Assembly (NCBI RefSeq): GCF_023516435.1
Contig: NZ_CP097332.1
Span: forward strand, 2,480,001 to 2,544,000
Direction of reading: 5' to 3'
Source: Jatrophihabitans telluris
Lineage (GTDB): Bacteria > Actinomycetota > Actinomycetes > Mycobacteriales > Jatrophihabitantaceae
DNA length: 64,000 nt
Part shown: in pieces, positions 1,157 through 24,891 of the stretch
Layout of the letters: each line of letters starts with the position of its first letter
Numbering within the stretch: position 1 is the first letter of the stretch
The notes under the pieces: generated by a model
Told to the model about the DNA's origin: nothing
The model's database searches: none
What the model saw: the letters and a program-made list of their open reading frames with translations, nothing else
Program-made: the position numbers and the translations under genes

Positions 1157-2375
1157 CCAGCAAACGCGCGCACCGAGACGCGTAGCCGTCGTGTTGGCTG
1201 CGGCGGCGCTCACGATCGCCGCGTGCTCATCCGGCACGCCCAGCTCGCAGCAGGCGTCGGGACCGTTGAAGATCGGGATGTCGCTGCCGATGACCGGGCC
1301 CGTCGCCGACGTCACCAAGTCCGGCCTGCAGGGTTACCAGCTGTGGGCCGCTGACGTGAACTCCGCCGGCGGCTTGCTCGGCCGCCAGGTGTCACTCGAC
1401 GTCCTCGACAACGGTTTCGACCCCACCCAGACCGGCGCCCAGTACACGAGATTGATCAGTAAGGACAAGGTGGATCTCCTGCTCGGCACATTCTCGTCGT
1501 TGCTGAACGCCCCGGCCTCGGCGATCGCCGCTCGCCAGGGGTATCTCTACGTCGAACCGTCCGGCGGCTCCGCCTCGCTGTTCACCCGCGGTTTCAGCAA
1601 TCTCTTCTTCGCTCAGCCTGGAACGACCGACCATCTGCCCGACCGGTTCGTGGAGTGGCTCTCCGGCCTGCCGAGCAGTCAACGTCCCAGCTCAGCGGCC
1701 TATCTCACCCAGGACGATCCCAGTGCCAGTCCGGCCATCGCGATCTTCAAGACCAAGCTGGAAGCACTCGGCATCAAGTCGGTCTACAACCAGACCTACG
1801 ACCCGAGTACCACGAACTTCGACGCGATCGCATCCTCGATCGCGCACGCCAAGCCCGACATCGTCTTCCAAGGGGCGGTCGCAGACGATGGTGCTCAGTT
1901 CGTCAGGTCACTGGAGAAGATCAGCTTCAGCCCGAAGCTGATGTTCCAGACCAACGCTCCGACGGACGAGACATACCCGACCGCGATCGGCAAGCAGAAC
2001 GCGGAGGCAATCTTCACCGCCGAGGCCTGGAGTCCCAAGGCGAAGTACGCCGGTAACGCCGCCTTCGTCGCCGCCTACACCAAGAAGTATGGTGCGCCGC
2101 CTACCGAGGACGCCGCGAACTCCTACACCGCCGGTCAGGTGCTGGCCGCCGCCGTGCGGGCCGTCGGCAAGGTCGATCAGAAGGCCATGGCCAGCTGGCT
2201 GCACAGTCACACCGTCCAGACCATCGTCGGCCCGCTCAAGTGGGACTCCACCGGGGTTCCCGAAGGCAGCCTGCTGCTGGCCCAGTGGCAGTCCGGTCAG
2301 CTCGAGATCATCGCGCCCGCGTCAGCGGCCACCACGTCGGACGCCCTCATCACCAAGCCTGGCTGGCGAAGCTGA
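1149..2375 (+). CDS. ABC importer substrate-binding lipoprotein (branched-chain amino acid type)
   Basis: 408 aa. The N-terminus is a lipoprotein signal: an Arg-containing start, a hydrophobic run and a lipobox ending Thr-Ile-Ala-Ala-Cys near residue 26. The mature part has the LivJ/Peripla_BP_6 pattern: a KIGMSLPMTGPVA strand near 38, a GGLLGRQV motif and a C-terminal region ending in a short tail. LivJ-type proteins bind amino acids, but in actinobacteria the same fold also carries aromatic acids, amides and urea, so the ligand is open. It is the first gene of a binding protein-permease-ATPase set; the permease start overlaps its stop by 1 nt. The downstream aldolase and lactonase-like gene suggest an organic acid rather than an amino acid. 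Confidence 0.9.
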   Translation: MTNQQTRAPRRVAVVLAAAALTIAACSSGTPSSQQASGPLKIGMSLPMTGPVADVTKSGLQGYQLWAADVNSAGGLLGRQVSLDVLDNGFDPTQTGAQYTRLISKDKVDLLLGTFSSLLNAPASAIAARQGYLYVEPSGGSASLFTRGFSNLFFAQPGTTDHLPDRFVEWLSGLPSSQRPSSAAYLTQDDPSASPAIAIFKTKLEALGIKSVYNQTYDPSTTNFDAIASSIAHAKPDIVFQGAVADDGAQFVRSLEKISFSPKLMFQTNAPTDETYPTAIGKQNAEAIFTAEAWSPKAKYAGNAAFVAAYTKKYGAPPTEDAANSYTAGQVLAAAVRAVGKVDQKAMASWLHSHTVQTIVGPLKWDSTGVPEGSLLLAQWQSGQLEIIAPASAATTSDALITKPGWRS

Positions 2376-3256
2376 TGGTCGAGCTCGTTCAGACTGTCAT
2401 CTTCGGGGTGCTCATCGGCGCCGTGTACGCGCTGATGGCCACCGGTCTCACGCTGACCTTCGGCGTGATGAAGATCGTCAACATGGCGCAGGGCGCGTTC
2501 CTGATCCTGTCGGCGTACCTGTGTTACAGCTTGTGGTCGCGCTTCGGCATCGACCCCATCCTCGCTTCGTTCATCGTCACCATTCCGCTGGCTGGGCTGG
2601 GACTGGTGCTGTACAAGCTGGTGATCGAGCGCGTTCAGCGCATCGACCACGGTTTGACCATCGTGGCCACGTTCTCGCTCGCGATCGTCGCCGAGGCGGT
2701 TATCGCCCTGATCTGGGGACCGAACCCCACCACGACCACGCCCAAGTACTTCAACCAGTCCTTGCATCTGGGCTCGTTCGTAGTGCCTCGTGCACAGCTG
2801 TACGCGTGCGTGTTCGCCCTCGGGGTCGCGGTCGTGCTGCAGCTCGTCGTCAAGCGCACCTGGCTCGGACACGCCATCACGGCAGCGTCGGAGAACCCCG
2901 AGGGCGCGCGTCTGATCGGCGTCGAACCTTCCACGGTGGGTGCCTGGATCTTCGCGATCGCGACCGCCAGCACGGCTTTCGGGGGCGCCGCCTTGAGCTT
3001 TCTGTACCAGTTCACCCCTGACACGCAGGACATCTGGATCGGCCTCACTCTGAGCGTGGTCATCCTGGGCGGGTTGGGAAGTATCCCGGGCGCGCTGGCG
3101 GCCGGCGTCCTGCTCGGCGTCGCCGAAGCCACCACGTCGACCTACGTGTCCGTCCGGTGGGCCGCGGCGGTGCCCACGCTGCTGATCCTCGTGGTGTTGC
3201 TCGTGCGCCCGCAGGGACTGTTCACCCGGGCCACTCGACAGGACGTGGGCACATGA
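2375..3256 (+). CDS. ABC importer permease, LivH-like
   Basis: 293 aa from the ATG at 2375, which shares its A with the TGA of the binding-protein gene. An upstream in-frame start at 2240 lies inside that gene and is not used here. The protein has about eight hydrophobic segments and the LivH signatures: an early GAVYALMATGLTLTFG stretch followed by the MKIVNMAQGAF loop, and a C-terminal VVILGGLGSIPGALAAG segment. It forms the inner-membrane pore with the LivM half encoded by the next gene. Coupling is by a 4-nt ATGA overlap at 3253. Confidence 0.93.
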   Translation: MVELVQTVIFGVLIGAVYALMATGLTLTFGVMKIVNMAQGAFLILSAYLCYSLWSRFGIDPILASFIVTIPLAGLGLVLYKLVIERVQRIDHGLTIVATFSLAIVAEAVIALIWGPNPTTTTPKYFNQSLHLGSFVVPRAQLYACVFALGVAVVLQLVVKRTWLGHAITAASENPEGARLIGVEPSTVGAWIFAIATASTAFGGAALSFLYQFTPDTQDIWIGLTLSVVILGGLGSIPGALAAGVLLGVAEATTSTYVSVRWAAAVPTLLILVVLLVRPQGLFTRATRQDVGT

Positions 3257-19007: not shown

Positions 19008-19571
19008 TCAGACCGGTTCGAGGGTGAAACGTCCCTGCGCATCCTCGAAGAACACCAGCACAGCGTAGTCGTCGCCACTGATGGAACCGTGGCACACGCT
19101 CACGACGTTCTGGGCCACTTTCGGAGTGGGCGGGCAGTCCATGCGGGACACGCTCCCGCCGTCCTGCGCGATTCGATCGCGCACCGCGGTGGCCAACGCG
19201 CTTGCGCTCAACGCCCCGCTCGGTACGGCGTTCAATTGGCCGGTGAGCGGGACGAGGGCACCCTGCCCCGACGACGATGCTCTGGACGGCACGGTGGCGA
19301 GCACGACCACCCCGATGACCAGCACGCCGATCAAGGCCACGATCGACACGATCAACCCGGCGATGGCCAGTCCTCGACCACGTGGCTGCGGCGCGACCGG
19401 CATGCCGACCGGCCCCATGTTCGGATACACCGGTTGGTACTCGGGATACACGCGCGGCTCCACTTCGGCGTGCCAGCGAGGTCCTGCCGGCGGGTTTTCC
19501 AGACGATTCGGCCGGCGCCGCGCAAACCTGAGGATTCCGGAGAAGGCGTTGCCGAGTCCGGACGCGGGCAC
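19008..19571 (-). CDS. DUF4333 membrane protein
   Basis: 187 aa, GTG start at 19571. A proline-rich cytoplasmic N-terminus with repeated PEYQPVYPN-type residues is followed by one transmembrane helix (about residues 69-91, GLAIAGLIVSIVALIGVLV region) and an extracytoplasmic DUF4333 domain with a conserved Cys pair in RMDCPPTPKV and VSVCHGSI. DUF4333 proteins are typical of actinobacteria and have no settled function. It is divergent from nrdAB; its start lies 39 bp from the first NrdR-like box. Confidence 0.82.
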   Translation of the reverse strand: MPASGLGNAFSGILRFARRRPNRLENPPAGPRWHAEVEPRVYPEYQPVYPNMGPVGMPVAPQPRGRGLAIAGLIVSIVALIGVLVIGVVVLATVPSRASSSGQGALVPLTGQLNAVPSGALSASALATAVRDRIAQDGGSVSRMDCPPTPKVAQNVVSVCHGSISGDDYAVLVFFEDAQGRFTLEPV

Positions 19572-19609
19572 AGCTAGCGAGCGAGGCGCAGTGAACGTGC
19601 GACACGCCG

Positions 19610-19656
19610 CTACGACATGTAGTTACCAACATCGTCAGTACCACTAGATATGGTGT
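19610..19656 (+). promoter_or_regulatory. Tandem NrdR-box-like repeats over the nrdAB promoter
   Basis: Two 16-bp sites start exactly 31 bp apart: 19610-19625 (9 of 16 positions match the general NrdR consensus acaCWAtATaTwGtgt) and 19641-19656 (13 of 16). A 15-bp gap, three helical turns centre to centre, is the known arrangement for the NrdR repressor. A plausible promoter, TTACCA (19623-19628) and TAGATA (19645-19650) with 16 bp between, is covered by the boxes, so NrdR binding would block RNA polymerase. NrdR itself is not encoded in the window. Confidence 0.75.
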
Positions 19657-19663
19657 GCTCGCA

Positions 19664-19870
19664 GCTGGTTCGCCCGTCATCCAGGCGGGTCGAGGCAACA
19701 GGGAATCCGGTGCGAATCCGGGACTGCCCCGCAGCGGTGAGTGGGAACGACAGCCGTCAACACAAGCACTGGGCACACAGCCTGGGAAGCGACGGCCAGT
19801 AGGTGGCGGGTACTCGGGGATTCGAACCCCGAGCGGCCGGCCGCGCCCACGAGTCCGAAGACCTGCCAGC
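19664..19870 (+). promoter_or_regulatory. Cobalamin (B12) riboswitch aptamer
   Basis: The core B12 box is recognisable: a GGGAATCCGGTGCGAATCC element at 19711, the GACTGCCCCGCAGCGGT segment at 19722-19738, a GCCTGGGAAG element at 19780 and the closing CGAAGACCTGCC at 19856. The closing stem pairs GCTGG (19664-19668) with CCAGC (19866-19870). An internal hairpin (CTCGGGG...CCCCGAG, 19813-19833) is a variable arm. In known cases, B12 binding turns off B12-independent ribonucleotide reductase when a B12-dependent class II enzyme can work. It controls nrdAB, 140 nt downstream. Confidence 0.93.
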
Positions 19871-19871
19871 G

Positions 19872-19929
19872 CACCGCGCACACCCGTGCGCGGTGGTCTG
19901 ATGCCTCGTGGGACGGCAGACGGCAGGTC
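19872..19929 (+). promoter_or_regulatory. Candidate expression platform of the B12 riboswitch
   Basis: Immediately after the aptamer, CACCGCGCAC (19872-19881) and GTGCGCGGTG (19886-19895) form a perfect 10-bp stem with an ACCC loop; no T-run follows. GGCAGGTC (19922-19929) is fully complementary to the aptamer closing segment GACCTGCC (19860-19867), giving a competing pairing. This fits an on/off switch between aptamer closure and an alternative fold. The ribosome-binding site GAGGAG (19998) is not directly in either stem. Confidence 0.55.
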
Positions 19930-20009
19930 GGGCGCCATCGGGTGTGCCGGCTCCGTCGCCCCTCGCGCCGGCCTCCGACCGTTCGGACCCAGCTCGCGAG
20001 GAGAGAGCC

Positions 20010-22415
20010 ATGACGGTCACCATCGACATTCCCACGCCGGAATCCCCGGCGCCCCGAAAGACGATGCAGGTACGCAAGCGAAACGGCGACAGCGAGGCGG
20101 TCGACGTCAACAAGATCGTTCGTGCGGTCGAGCGCTGGGCCGGCGACCTGGACGAGGTCGATCCGCTGCGCGTCGCCACCAAGACGATCAGCGGTCTCTA
20201 CGACGGCGCGACCACCGCAGAACTTGACCGCCTGTCGATCCAGACCTCGGCCGAGATGATCACCGAGGAGCCGCAGTACTCCCGGCTTGCGGCCCGGCTG
20301 CTGGCCAGCTACGTCGAGAAGGAGGTCCGCGGCCAGGGCATCGCCTCGTTCAGCCAGGCGATCGGCCTCGGGCACGCTGAGGGCCTGATCGGCGAGGAGA
20401 CCGCGCGCTTCGTCAAGGACAACGCCCGCAAGCTCGACTTCGCCATCGACGAGGACGCCGATCGCCGCTTCGAGTACTTCGGCCTGCGCACCGTCTACGA
20501 CCGCTACCTGCTGCGGCATCCCAAGGATCGCCTGGTCATCGAGACCCCGCAGTACTTCCTGCTCCGCGTCGCCTGCGGGTTGTCCCGCACCACGACCGAG
20601 GCGATCGATTTCTACCGACTGATGTCCTCGCTCGCCTATTTGCCCAGCAGCCCGACGCTGTTCAACTCGGGTACGGGGCACACCCAGATGTCCTCCTGCT
20701 ACCTCGTCGACTCGCCCAAGGACGAGCTCGACTCGATCTATTCGCGCTACCAGCAGGTCGCGCGCCTGTCGAAGTTCGCCGGCGGCATCGGGATCTCCTT
20801 CTCCCGCGTCCGCTCGCGCGGCGCCCTGATCCGGGGGACGAACGGCCAGTCGAACGGGATCGTCCCGTTCCTGCGCACGCTGGACTCCTCCGTCGCGGCC
20901 GTGAATCAGGGTGGCCGGCGCAAGGGCGCCGCGTGCGTCTACCTCGACACCTGGCACCCCGACGTCGAGGAGTTCCTGGAACTGCGGGACAACACCGGTG
21001 AGGACGCCCGGCGCGCCCACAACCTCAATCTCGCCAACTGGGTGCCGGACGAGTTCATGCGGCGCGTCGAGGCCGACGAGCCGTGGTCGCTGATCGACCC
21101 GGACCAGGTCCCCGAACTGGCCGATCTATGGGGCGACGCCTTCGACGCGGCCTACCGTTCGGCCGAGGCCGAGGGGCGTTTCGTCCGGCAGGTGAGGGCT
21201 CGTGACCTCTACGGCAAGATGATGCGCACCCTGGCCCAGACCGGCAACGGGTGGATGGTGTTCAAGGACGCGTCCAATCGCCTGTCGAATCAGACCGCGC
21301 TGGCCCACAACGTCGTGCATCTGTCCAACCTGTGCACCGAGATCATCGAGGTCACCAACGATGGCGAGACCGCTGTCTGCAACCTCGGCTCGGTCAACCT
21401 GGCGCGCCATCTCACGCCCGCGGCCGACGGCGTGGACTGGGACAAGCTCCGCCAGACCGTGCGGACCGCCGTGCCGTTCCTGGACCGGGTCATCGACATC
21501 AACTACTACCCGTCCGAGCAGGCCGCGGCGTCCAACCCGCGCTGGCGTCCAGTCGGCCTGGGTGTCATGGGGCTGCAGGATGTGTTCTTCGCGTTGCGGC
21601 TGCCCTTCGACTCCCCCGCCGCGCTGGAACTGTCGACCCGGATCGCGGAGGAGATCTACCTGACCGCACTGGAGACCTCGGCCGAGCTCGCCGAGCAGTT
21701 CGGACCACACCCTGCCTACGCCGAGACGCGTGCCGCCGGCGGACAGCTGCAGCCGGACCTCTGGGGCGTCACGCCGACCCAGACCGGGCGTTGGACCGCG
21801 CTGCGAGAGCGGGTTGCGGCGAGCGGGCTGCGCAACTCCCTGCTGATCGCGATCGCGCCCACCGCGACGATCGCCTCCATCGCCGGGTGTTACGAGTGCA
21901 TCGAACCGCAGGTGTCGAACCTGTTCAAGCGCGAAACCCTCAGTGGGGAATTCCTGCAGATCAACGCCGCCCTGGTTCGTGATCTGAAAGCTCATGGACT
22001 GTGGACGGCTGAGGTCCGGGACGCGATCAAGCGGGCCGAAGGATCGGTCCAGGATCTCCTGGCGTTACCGGCGGAGGCCCGAACGTTGTTCCGCACCGCG
22101 TGGGAGCTGCCGCAACGGGCTTTAATCGATATCGCCGCGGCGCGGGCGCCTTACATCGACCAGTCGCAGTCGCTGAACCTGTTCATGGCCGCCCCGTCGA
22201 TCGGCAAGCTGTCGTCGATGTACCTGCACGCCTGGAAGAGCGGTTTGAAGACGACGTACTACCTTCGGTCGCGCCCAGCGACCCGCATCCAGCAAGCGAC
22301 CGTCGCCCCCACGCCCCGGGCGGGTGCGGCAGCGAACCAGTCCGCCACCGTCTCCGACGAACAAGCGCTCGCATGCTCCCTGGAGAACCCCGAGAACTGC
22401 GAGGCCTGCCAGTGA
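20010..22415 (+). CDS. nrdA: Ribonucleoside-diphosphate reductase, class Ia, alpha subunit
   Basis: 801 aa from the ATG at 20010, preceded by GAGGAGAG; the frame is open upstream through the riboswitch but that is leader. An N-terminal ATP-cone (about 18-105) senses ATP/dATP. Active-site motifs follow: SGTGHTQMSSCYL with the first redox Cys, NLCTEI with the thiyl-radical Cys and its Glu, AVCNLGSVNL with the second redox Cys, and PTATIASIAG for phosphate binding. The C-terminus carries CEACQ, the CxxC pair that takes electrons from thioredoxin. It reduces ribonucleotides to deoxyribonucleotides with NrdB. GTGA overlap with nrdB. Confidence 0.97.
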   Translation: MTVTIDIPTPESPAPRKTMQVRKRNGDSEAVDVNKIVRAVERWAGDLDEVDPLRVATKTISGLYDGATTAELDRLSIQTSAEMITEEPQYSRLAARLLASYVEKEVRGQGIASFSQAIGLGHAEGLIGEETARFVKDNARKLDFAIDEDADRRFEYFGLRTVYDRYLLRHPKDRLVIETPQYFLLRVACGLSRTTTEAIDFYRLMSSLAYLPSSPTLFNSGTGHTQMSSCYLVDSPKDELDSIYSRYQQVARLSKFAGGIGISFSRVRSRGALIRGTNGQSNGIVPFLRTLDSSVAAVNQGGRRKGAACVYLDTWHPDVEEFLELRDNTGEDARRAHNLNLANWVPDEFMRRVEADEPWSLIDPDQVPELADLWGDAFDAAYRSAEAEGRFVRQVRARDLYGKMMRTLAQTGNGWMVFKDASNRLSNQTALAHNVVHLSNLCTEIIEVTNDGETAVCNLGSVNLARHLTPAADGVDWDKLRQTVRTAVPFLDRVIDINYYPSEQAAASNPRWRPVGLGVMGLQDVFFALRLPFDSPAALELSTRIAEEIYLTALETSAELAEQFGPHPAYAETRAAGGQLQPDLWGVTPTQTGRWTALRERVAASGLRNSLLIAIAPTATIASIAGCYECIEPQVSNLFKRETLSGEFLQINAALVRDLKAHGLWTAEVRDAIKRAEGSVQDLLALPAEARTLFRTAWELPQRALIDIAAARAPYIDQSQSLNLFMAAPSIGKLSSMYLHAWKSGLKTTYYLRSRPATRIQQATVAPTPRAGAAANQSATVSDEQALACSLENPENCEACQ

Positions 22416-23452
22416 CGGCACCATCGCCATCAGGGGATTCCCGCTTGCCGCAGACGATGCTGCTCGATCCGGGCATGGATCTGACCCTGCGGCCGATGCG
22501 GTACCCGCACTTCTACGACCGGTTCCGCGACGCGATCAAGAACACCTGGACCGTCGAGGAGGTCGATCTGCATTCGGACCTCAAGGATCTGGCGCGGCTC
22601 TCGCCCGCAGAGCAACACCTGGTCAGCCGGCTGGTCGCGTTCTTCGCCACCGGCGACACGATCGTCTCCAACAACCTGGTGCTGAACCTCTACCAGCACG
22701 TCAACTCCCCCGAAGGTCGGCTGTACCTGTCTCGGCAGCTGTTCGAGGAAGCCGTGCACGTCCAGTTCTATCTGACCCTGCTCGACACCTACGTTCCCGA
22801 TCACACTGAACGGTTCGAGGCGTTCGCGGCGGTGGAGAACATCCCCTCGATCCGTCGCAAGGCCGAGTTCTGCTACAAGTGGATCGATTCCATCAACCAG
22901 CTGCACCGGTTGACGAATGCCCCGGAACGTAGGGCTTTTCTGCTCAATCTCATCTGCTTCGCGGCGTGCATCGAGGGCCTGTTCTTCTACGGTGCGTTCG
23001 CCTACGTCTACTTCCTGCGTTCCCGCGGATTGCTCAACGGGCTCGCGTCGGGAACGAACTGGGTCTTCCGCGACGAGTCGATGCACATGGCCTTCGCCTT
23101 CGATGTGGTCGACACCGTCCGCGCGGAGGAACCCGACCTGTTCGACGAAGACCTCACCCAGCAGGTGACGGACATGATCGCGGAGGCGGTCGAGTGCGAG
23201 GTGGCCTTCGCCGAAGACCTGCTCGAGCAGGGAGTGTCCGGGATGTCACTGCTGGACATGCGCGAATACCTGCAGCACGTGGCCGATCGGCGACTGTCCC
23301 AGTTGGGCATCGATCCGCTCTACGGCTCGAAGAACCCGTTCGCGTTCATGGAGTTGCAGGACGTGCAGGAGTTGTCGAACTTCTTCGAACGCAAGGTCTC
23401 GTCGTACCAGGTCGGGGTCAGCGGCACGGTCGGGTTCGACGACGAGTTCTGA
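22412..23452 (+). CDS. nrdB: Ribonucleoside-diphosphate reductase, class Ia, beta (radical) subunit
   Basis: 346 aa from the GTG at 22412. Metal ligands are Asp82 in ATGDTIV, Glu113 and His116 in FEEAVHVQFY, and later Glu and His in ECEVAF and RDESMHMAF. Tyr120, four residues after His116, is in the radical-tyrosine position, so this is a Tyr-radical subunit and not a class Ic-type Phe variant. The C-terminal tail GFDDEF is the usual NrdA-docking peptide. No third nrdS-like regulator gene follows; the caspase gene is convergent 14 nt on. Confidence 0.96.
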   Translation: MTAPSPSGDSRLPQTMLLDPGMDLTLRPMRYPHFYDRFRDAIKNTWTVEEVDLHSDLKDLARLSPAEQHLVSRLVAFFATGDTIVSNNLVLNLYQHVNSPEGRLYLSRQLFEEAVHVQFYLTLLDTYVPDHTERFEAFAAVENIPSIRRKAEFCYKWIDSINQLHRLTNAPERRAFLLNLICFAACIEGLFFYGAFAYVYFLRSRGLLNGLASGTNWVFRDESMHMAFAFDVVDTVRAEEPDLFDEDLTQQVTDMIAEAVECEVAFAEDLLEQGVSGMSLLDMREYLQHVADRRLSQLGIDPLYGSKNPFAFMELQDVQELSNFFERKVSSYQVGVSGTVGFDDEF

Positions 23453-23466
23453 TCGGCGACGCTGTC

Positions 23467-24891
23467 CTACCGAGCAGCCGCGATCAGCACCGCACACCCG
23501 GAGTGTTGTACATAGGCGGCGCGGGCCGCACCAGTGCTCAACTGGTGGGCCTGCGTCGCCGCGGTCAAGCGCTCGAAGTTCAGCACGGTCCCGTCCGCGG
23601 CATTGCGAAGCGTCACCGGGCAAGTGCTTCCGGTCAGAGCCGACGCGGTCACCGTGATCATGCCCGTGACCGCGAAGGCGTCGGTGTCGCCCCGGCTGTT
23701 TGCCACGGTGGCCGGAAGCGGGAGCGAGCCGGGCCCGGCCAGTGGGGCGAGCTGGCAGCCGGATTCGTTCTTCAGCAAGGTCAGGGCACCGGTCTGCGCG
23801 ACCTGGAAAGTCGCCGGATCGTAGATTCCCGCGGCGAGCTGGATCGTTGTGCCGCTTGCCGATCGGATCGCGACCGCGCACCCGGGGTCGCCGTCGACCG
23901 AGGCGGCGTCCTGAATCTTCAGTCTCCACGGCGAGGCAGCCGAGTACTGGCGATCGACGATGTTCGGTGTCGTGCCGACATGGCCGTGTCCGCCCGAGCC
24001 CGACGTGCCCTGCAGCAGCACGATCGTGGTGAGGAGCCCGGCAGCGGCAAGGACGCTGACACCGGCGAGCGTCGTGCGGCGACCGATCCAGCGGTCCCGC
24101 CCGGCTGACCTCGCACGCCCTGTGGCCGGATCAGAGCGGACTGGCGGCCCCGGCGGCGGATCAGCAGTCGGTGCGCCTTGGCGCTTGGCCAACGCAATGT
24201 CACCGTCGCCGGCCACCTTGCGCTGTGGGATCTGCTTTCCCTCAGCGCGCAGACGACGGTCGATGTAGGCGTAGAGGTCTGAGAAGTCGACGTAGCCGTC
24301 GTGGTCACGGTCGACGGCAGCGCCGACCAGACCCTCAACCAGATGCTGGGTGAAATGGCTCGTCCCGTCCGCCTCGGTTGCGTCGTTGGCCAACTGCGTG
24401 CCGCGACAGCTCGTCAGGACGTAGCGGCCAGGTCCGGCGACCGCATCGCTGAACTCGCCACCCCGGAAGGCACCGGCATAGCAACAGTCGAGGACGACCA
24501 CCAGCGTCCGGGCCCGCGACGCCTCCGCGAACTCGTTGATCCTGGTGCTACTGACCGCGGTGGCGAGCAGGTCAGCGCTGTCGGTGTCCTGCATACATAG
24601 ATGCAGCCGGCCGAGCTGGTCGAGCTTTCCGTGGCCGCTGAAATAGAGCAGCAGGACGTCCTCGCGCTGCGCCGATCCGAAGAACGTCCCGATCGCGCGA
24701 AGCGCTCTGCTGGAGGTGGTCTCACTCAGCAGGGTGACGTTGATTTCGTCGAAGAGGCCCGTTTCCTGGTCGGTCAGCGCGCGGCGGAGCGCGGCGAGGT
24801 CATTCGGCGGTCCCTTCAGCGGCTGAAGATTGTGCTCGTCGGCGGGATAGGTGGCATTGCCGATCAGGAGCGCTCGGTACTTGGCGGCCAC
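23467..24891 (-). CDS. EACC1-associated caspase with membrane helix and exported C-terminal domain
   Basis: 474 aa, GTG start at 24891, overlapping the EACC1 gene by 28 nt. Residues 1-185 are a caspase/metacaspase p20-like domain: YRALLIGN at the first strand, the catalytic His87 in YFSGHGKLD and Cys137 in VVLDCCYAGAF. An EF-hand-like DRDHDGYVDFSDLY loop (194-206) is followed by a Pro-rich linker, one transmembrane helix (about 274-294) and a 180-residue C-terminal domain with four cysteines. It is expected to be a cysteine protease held at the membrane with the catalytic part in the cytoplasm. Pairing with EACC1 marks it as a conflict/immunity-type effector. Confidence 0.92.
   Translation of the reverse strand: MAAKYRALLIGNATYPADEHNLQPLKGPPNDLAALRRALTDQETGLFDEINVTLLSETTSSRALRAIGTFFGSAQREDVLLLYFSGHGKLDQLGRLHLCMQDTDSADLLATAVSSTRINEFAEASRARTLVVVLDCCYAGAFRGGEFSDAVAGPGRYVLTSCRGTQLANDATEADGTSHFTQHLVEGLVGAAVDRDHDGYVDFSDLYAYIDRRLRAEGKQIPQRKVAGDGDIALAKRQGAPTADPPPGPPVRSDPATGRARSAGRDRWIGRRTTLAGVSVLAAAGLLTTIVLLQGTSGSGGHGHVGTTPNIVDRQYSAASPWRLKIQDAASVDGDPGCAVAIRSASGTTIQLAAGIYDPATFQVAQTGALTLLKNESGCQLAPLAGPGSLPLPATVANSRGDTDAFAVTGMITVTASALTGSTCPVTLRNAADGTVLNFERLTAATQAHQLSTGAARAAYVQHSGCAVLIAAAR

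Follow-up and report, generated by a model that had tools for sequence, protein, structure and literature searches.

Predicted NrdR boxes and a cobalamin riboswitch ahead of the class I ribonucleotide reductase genes nrdAB in Jatrophihabitans telluris

The class I ribonucleotide reductase genes nrdAB of Jatrophihabitans telluris are preceded by a pair of predicted NrdR boxes and a full-length cobalamin aptamer, and from this arrangement we infer that NrdR and B12 leader control both act on the operon. On the evidence laid out below we consider it very probable that nrdAB, needing no B12, backs up the B12-dependent class II enzyme NrdJ and is itself turned off by two signals independent of each other, one from NrdR and one from the riboswitch. 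The window analysed is the whole stretch of 64,000 nucleotides of contig NZ_CP097332.1; five-digit positions refer to it, seven-digit positions are those of the genome and features lie on the + strand unless marked otherwise. A preliminary description of this DNA had placed the regulatory region at 19610-19870. The elements within that span were borne out, while its end stops short of the 3' part of the leader, where conservation continues in the direction of the Shine-Dalgarno sequence (about 20003).

Family searches identified nrdA (20010-22415) as the gene for an 801-residue class I alpha subunit with an ATP-cone and nrdB (22457-23452, the start being either 22457 or 22475) as that for the beta subunit. 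NrdA (P0001), made up of ATP-cone and barrel, scored 704.5 bits with TIGR02506, which is above the cut-off, and PF02867, PF00317 and PF03477 in NrdA and PF00268 (small chain) in NrdB were likewise all above their cut-offs. In the two proteins the matches to the class-1a alpha and beta models of NCBIfam stayed below their cut-offs, so that the placing in subclass Ia (not b, c or d), which we infer, draws on the ATP-cone and on kinship with actinobacterial nrdAB. In a tree built from 48 of 88 NrdA proteins the window nrdA grouped with those of a genome of the same genus (G004) and a metagenome-assembled genome (MAG, L006) with support of 98/89, apart from that of G013 of the same family. The 3' neighbour of nrdB (23467-24891, - strand) encodes an EACC1-associated type of caspase-like protease (NF047832, 183.5 bits, cut-off 140).

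The full B12 aptamer claimed ahead of nrdAB was recovered by the Rfam covariance model RF00174 at 19649-19884, matched over its full length (positions 1-189 of 189) with 90.5 bits against a gathering threshold of 31.5 (E 4.2e-21), and this was the sole Rfam match in the window at the gathering threshold. The first 8 bases of the match, which overlap the second NrdR box, probably lie outside the folded core, since the outermost pairs of the model are non-standard here. The B12 box AGUCCGAAGACCUGCC (19852-19867) was located by Rfam and by alignment on the 3' side of the core. A tRNA-like insert suggested by the T-arm-like hairpin CTCGGGGATTCGAACCCCGAG (19813-19833) was rejected, as ARAGORN found no tRNA there and Rfam none at gathering; the likeness to a T-arm comes cheaply because the hairpin loop TTCGAA reads identically on both strands. 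The idea that this loop pairs with the loop of a hairpin in the aptamer was dropped as well; by eye, the likeness among five related leaders was partial in L006 and L088 and lacking in L087, L091 and L092.

One further cobalamin match (2848595-2848748) was found among the 150 of 345 candidates scored in the genome. The gene (1761-3152 of locus L005) that follows this second riboswitch (1501-1654 of the locus) encodes a secreted-looking protein which has no Pfam match and matches the SCO2321 family weakly (65.6 bits, cut-off 300). We take it to resemble cobalamin-binding alpha/alpha-barrel proteins, in which case it may serve B12 capture.

Past the aptamer the leader carries a module of two hairpins, H1 (10 bp, 19872-19895) with strong covariation among relatives and H2 (19903-19917), also backed by covariation, with the loop CGUGGGA. 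In 42 relatives 96.9% of the cells were paired, which is a favourable figure because several of the pieces omitted from this alignment (A3, 42 of 48 pieces; L023, L037, L041, L044, L050 and L081 omitted) fit the module poorly. Two-sided changes were seen at 13 of the 16 pairs, with 104 two-sided-change cells as against 26.0 in shuffles, and slid controls were 30%-37% paired; the structure was drawn from the very sequences used for this count. The window leader, absent from model building, matched the H1-H2 model at 71.2 bits. Poor fits were obtained for L037, L041, L044 and L045 (18.9-32.4 bits), and no match at E<=1 was returned in L058 and L081 or in L094 and L099, distant loci that bear an aptamer. 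Alignment A1 contains 57 sequences, with 12 of the 68 non-redundant leaders omitted (L021, L037, L041, L044, L045, L058, L064, L065, L076, L081, L082 and L083) and L092 added. The leader of a Streptosporangiaceae MAG (L017, 2891-2971; 31.6 bits with the H1-H2 model) has the aptamer and H1 with no standard H2 loop and a Shine-Dalgarno sequence closely after H1, perhaps a natural deletion of the platform.

When the H1-H2 covariance model (R2) was run on 61 genomes it gave 12 matches, a lower bound since 93 first-look candidates were scored per genome under stricter filters. Nine lie before nrdA (8 close and 1 distant, in G012) and the other three before a nickel/cobalt transporter-like gene (G007) and metE-like genes (G052, G057), names that were read from translations with no family search. 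Rfam cobalamin aptamers are present at all four of the loci in G012, G007, G052 and G057. The idea of an nrdAB-specific element was therefore rejected, the module being found ahead of other genes too. In G007 a c-di-GMP-I-GGC riboswitch match was also noted close to the transporter-like gene (L170, 23-97, - strand; 62.3 bits, gathering 59).

The H2 loop reads CG-N-GGG in 80 of 82 leaders, and an aptamer stretch CTGCCC(C)GCA with a CCC(C) loop occurs in 75 of the 82; in the window this stretch, with a CCCC loop, lies at 19720-19735. The portion of PMC11260477 available describes, for the M. tuberculosis metE riboswitch, pairing of L5 (CCC) with L13 (GG) of the expression platform, backed by compensatory mutants. 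By comparison with that account the window stretch is read as the L5 equivalent, and the metE pairing together with the two conserved loops leads us to read H2 as L13. By this analogy the GGG loop of H2 could be the partner of the L5 CCCC loop in a kissing interaction; covariation is uninformative on the pairing because both sides hardly vary. The metE riboswitch is like the present one in its L5 cytidines and L13 guanosines, the pairing here being predicted, and in that the same portion of PMC11260477 gives no intrinsic terminator as found. It differs in controlling metE, in carrying uORFs and in having a platform that was probed, whereas ours is predicted.

The published B12 riboswitch cases, to the extent that they are set out in the available text of PMC3848588 and PMC11260477, suggest control at the translation start, by early termination or by both. 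The Shine-Dalgarno sequence of nrdA, GAGGAG, lies at 19998-20003, and a fold predicted from the platform's own sequence offers a candidate anti-Shine-Dalgarno strand at 19961-19966 (pairing with 19996-20001), in which Shine-Dalgarno bases 19998-20001 are paired with 19961-19964. As a general mechanism this pairing was rejected, since over 66 leaders its value was 0.55 as against 0.60 in shuffled sequences and was higher in the native sequence in 29. The whole leader folded as a single sequence gave a z of -1.52, with 9 of 100 shuffles folding as well. In the lowest-energy predicted fold of the platform H2 is open, its strand being paired with the region of the start codon; this could represent the other state of the switch or an artefact.

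A long-range helix is proposed between 19895-19901, which shares base 19895 with H1, and 19983-19989, just upstream of the Shine-Dalgarno sequence. Over 54 non-redundant leaders the strands paired with their own partners scored 15.19 as against 13.57 with foreign partners (sd 0.38), the highest of 500 foreign pairings being 14.61, and the own pairing was above the foreign mean in 35 of the 54; with all 79 leaders the values were 15.40 and 13.70 (sd 0.29). Among eight shifted controls the +24 shift rose similarly (15.05 vs 13.58), which we read as another helix, H3, the +9 shift rose somewhat (15.57 vs 14.88) and the remaining six differed by -0.44 to +0.48. The comparison lends the predicted helix modest support, at figures that relatedness may inflate.

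These results bear on the output step, for which the leading alternative to control at the translation start is that the folded aptamer works mainly through transcription termination by Rho. This alternative is compatible with the double control proposed above, from which it differs in the output step only, and we put it a little short of an even chance. A scan of the leader region returned no intrinsic terminator. The lack of general support for Shine-Dalgarno pairing over the 66 leaders speaks for termination, as does RNA-seq of P. acnes, where much nrdAB transcription apparently ends before the first gene according to the part of PMC3848588 at hand; Borovok 2006, going by its title, likewise has B12 controlling transcription. 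Against it stands the metE platform of M. tuberculosis, which is described in the available portion of PMC11260477 as translational, augmented by Rho or mRNA decay.

Upstream of the aptamer, box 1 (CTACGACATGTAGTTA, 19610-19625) and box 2 (CCACTAGATATGGTGT, 19641-19656) were found with the distance first described, 31 bp or about three helix turns from start to start, which leaves a 15-bp spacer. A weight matrix based on 79 such pairs ahead of nrdAB in other genomes gave the pair 30.0 bits (box 1, 6.5; box 2, 23.5), far above the next-best non-overlapping place in the window (1.8 bits), and a profile search of the window found it at E 3.7e-05. The profile (alignment A2, model R1) drew on 52 of 88 listed pairs, 30 from nrdAB and 22 from nrdRJ, all taken from genomes other than that of the host. 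Searched through the whole genome, with 150 of 338 first-look candidates scored, it placed the nrdAB pair second (E 0.0024) of three matches at E<=10, behind one upstream of nrdR-nrdJ (E 1.3e-8); the third (2737831-2737877, E 0.035), near his genes by our reading, is weak and was taken as chance. Box 1 is weak alone and by itself would have escaped notice; the evidence lies in the pair and its spacing. The pair sits just upstream of the aptamer in a position that fits overlap with the promoter; box 2 presumably overlaps the -10 region, a promoter role that we propose from this placing, and no match to the sigma-70 consensus was found in 19400-20100.

An alternative in which the riboswitch alone is functional and the NrdR pair is a degenerate remnant takes its force from the poor box 1, with its 6.5 bits, and from P. 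acnes, where a single box overlaps the nrdAB promoter in the part of PMC3848588 available. We consider this reading improbable. The pair ranks second among the matches scored genome-wide, and C at position 4 and G at position 13 are retained in both boxes; by our arithmetic these correspond to the GC pairs that the accessible part of PMC9110341 describes as conserved and as critical in nrdRJ of S. coelicolor. Among the 80 nearest nrdA loci a pair of like spacing was present in 79 at >=18 of 32 consensus matches and in 66 at the tighter cut of >=20, with a distance of 31 bp in 40, 32 in 38 and 30 in 1. The cut of 18 is loose, since the best scores of six distant nrdA loci were 16-19 and three loci scored on the wrong strand still reached 15-16; the box pairs of L089, L090 and L093 were not scored in the right orientation. 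The nrdAB box pair is thus real as a pair of predicted NrdR sites.

The aptamer is conserved alongside the boxes. A B12-box motif was found at 78 of the 80 nearest nrdA loci, and among the host and 60 relatives the Rfam aptamer was present at all 8 close nrdA loci and at 4 of 6 more distant ones. Within the nearest 80, Rfam was run on L017, L025 and L040 and matched in L017 alone; L025 and L040 returned no Rfam aptamer though boxes and nrdJ are kept. A locus from a MAG labelled Acidobacteria (L083) has an nrdA 75% identical and a B12-box motif, matches the H1-H2 model weakly (36.3 bits), and represents a mislabelled bin or a transfer. That the entire promoter and leader resemble regulatory elements by chance is refuted for practical purposes by the E value of the aptamer (4.2e-21) together with the covariation of H1-H2 in relatives and the fit of the window to that model.

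The preliminary description had further predicted a B12-dependent class II nrdJ elsewhere in the genome and had proposed a look for nrdR. Both were found, with NrdJ at 2233125-2234957 (TIGR02504, 611.8 bits, cut-off 399.95) and NrdR at 2235450-2235881 (156.9 bits, cut-off 124.65), the two genes adjoining within 2233125-2235881. With these genes present, a significant Rfam match and NrdR-box scores well above the rest of the window, none of the outcomes that the preliminary description had named as refuting was observed. The box pair of nrdR itself consists of CCCCAACATGTAGTAG and CGTCCACAAGTTGGGG, 32 bp apart. In 40 loci upstream of nrdJ in relatives a recognisable nrdR start was seen in 36, of which 35 have an nrdRJ-type pair (>=20 of 32). 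Many rows of alignment A2 from these promoters (L116-L155) show the inverted repeat TTACA-N4or5-TGTAA between the two nrdRJ boxes. TCCACA in nrdRJ box 2 presumably resembles the end of a DnaA box, and the region upstream of the host nrdR (L001, 1933-2300) holds several TTATCCACA-like stretches which we take to be DnaA-box-like. A further regulator at nrdRJ promoters is possible.

NrdJ was searched for in the genomes behind 50 of the 80 nearest loci; it exceeded the cut-off in 45 and was in pieces in 3 (G061, G074 and G080). The remaining two genomes, those of L055 and L085 (G097 and G110), yielded neither nrdJ nor nrdR, though the leaders at both loci carry the B12-box motif, and this may reflect assembly gaps or real losses.

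Double control of nrdAB is not new, as S. coelicolor and P. acnes share the architecture. The statement that B12 riboswitches occur on class Ia nrd genes of Streptomyces held for nrdABS of S. coelicolor, and had understated what was already published. In the parts of the literature available, the ribonucleotide reductase operons of that organism have NrdR boxes with 15-16 bp spacers (PMC9110341, PMC12051234) and nrdABS is under a B12 riboswitch (PMC4991794, citing Borovok 2006). To that extent it is like the present system in its class Ia nrdAB, spaced boxes, B12 riboswitch and nrdRJ under NrdR boxes of their own. The S. coelicolor operon includes nrdS, while our comparison covers nrdA and nrdB, and its nrdA is reportedly also under SenR, our comparison being of NrdR boxes and riboswitch. 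The accessible text of PMC4991794 also credits S. coelicolor with eight more genes or clusters under putative B12 riboswitches, as against one further match here with 150 of 345 candidates scored. Propionibacterium (Cutibacterium) acnes nrdAB also has a leader cobalamin riboswitch and an NrdR box at the promoter, and the portion of PMC3848588 available annotates no riboswitch at nrdRJ, which we count as like here. The same portion gives a single nrd-box at nrdAB, unlike the pair in J. telluris, and an additional nrdDG with an annotated riboswitch.

For nrdAB as a doubly controlled backup, the following course of events is suggested by the known systems. With dATP plentiful, an NrdR tetramer loaded with ATP/dATP would span both boxes and bend the promoter, and would block initiation at nrdAB and nrdRJ, as judged from S. 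coelicolor. Where the leader is transcribed and adenosylcobalamin is present the aptamer would bind it, by the example of S. coelicolor, P. acnes and M. tuberculosis. With the ligand bound, the CCCC loop would kiss the GGG in the loop of H2, and the leader further downstream would fold in a way that turns nrdA off, through an occluded translation start and/or early termination independent of an intrinsic terminator. Under B12 scarcity NrdJ would be idle, the switch would open and NrdAB would take over.

The source of the B12 sensed by this switch is indicated by the biosynthetic genes. No match to CobS or CbiC was found in the host genome, these being found in 46 and 41 of 61 genomes, respectively, so the host is probably unable to make B12 and dependent on scavenging it. 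The switch would then most likely read external supply. NrdJ would depend on that same supply, so that nrdAB would be released when the supply fails and may rescue DNA precursor synthesis once scavenged B12 runs out.

Within the family of the host nrdAB is patchy. In 12 family genomes at least 90% complete, both of those with neither CobS nor CbiC (the host and G013) keep an intact nrdAB, as against 1 (G004) of the 10 with both genes (Fisher p 0.045, kinship ignored). Over all 45 genomes with completeness of 90% or more and contamination of 5% or less, nrdAB was present in 4 of 7 CobS-less and 8 of 38 CobS-bearing genomes, a difference that is not significant (Fisher p 0.069, kinship again ignored). 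CobS was also found in 34 of 50 other nrdAB genomes of unstated completeness, so that B12 auxotrophy is no general requirement. The congener G001, which has CobS and CbiC, contains in mid-contig an inverted stretch corresponding to NrdA residues 44-132 beside a truncated nrdB, and no aptamer was found within the 3.3 kb examined; this remnant was counted as absent in the above figures. The scrambled state looks like decay, with mis-assembly possible. The remnant (L100, 1501-2606) adjoins an EAL-domain-like gene, with a short blastn match to the GGDEF-EAL gene of the window.

For the family as a whole we advance, as a tentative and rather doubtful suggestion, that the riboswitch-guarded nrdAB is an insurance operon, with NrdJ as the standing enzyme, which is kept without B12 synthesis and decays with it, its presence tracking the loss of synthesis. 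With the predicted arrangement in J. telluris, the known double lock on class I ribonucleotide reductase would be extended to a further lineage of actinobacteria; in the nrdAB operons nearest to this one the lock appears close to the rule. The covariation-backed H1-H2 module could help in predicting expression platforms in high-GC bacteria, and the apparent lack of B12 synthesis offers a testable reason for keeping two classes of ribonucleotide reductase.
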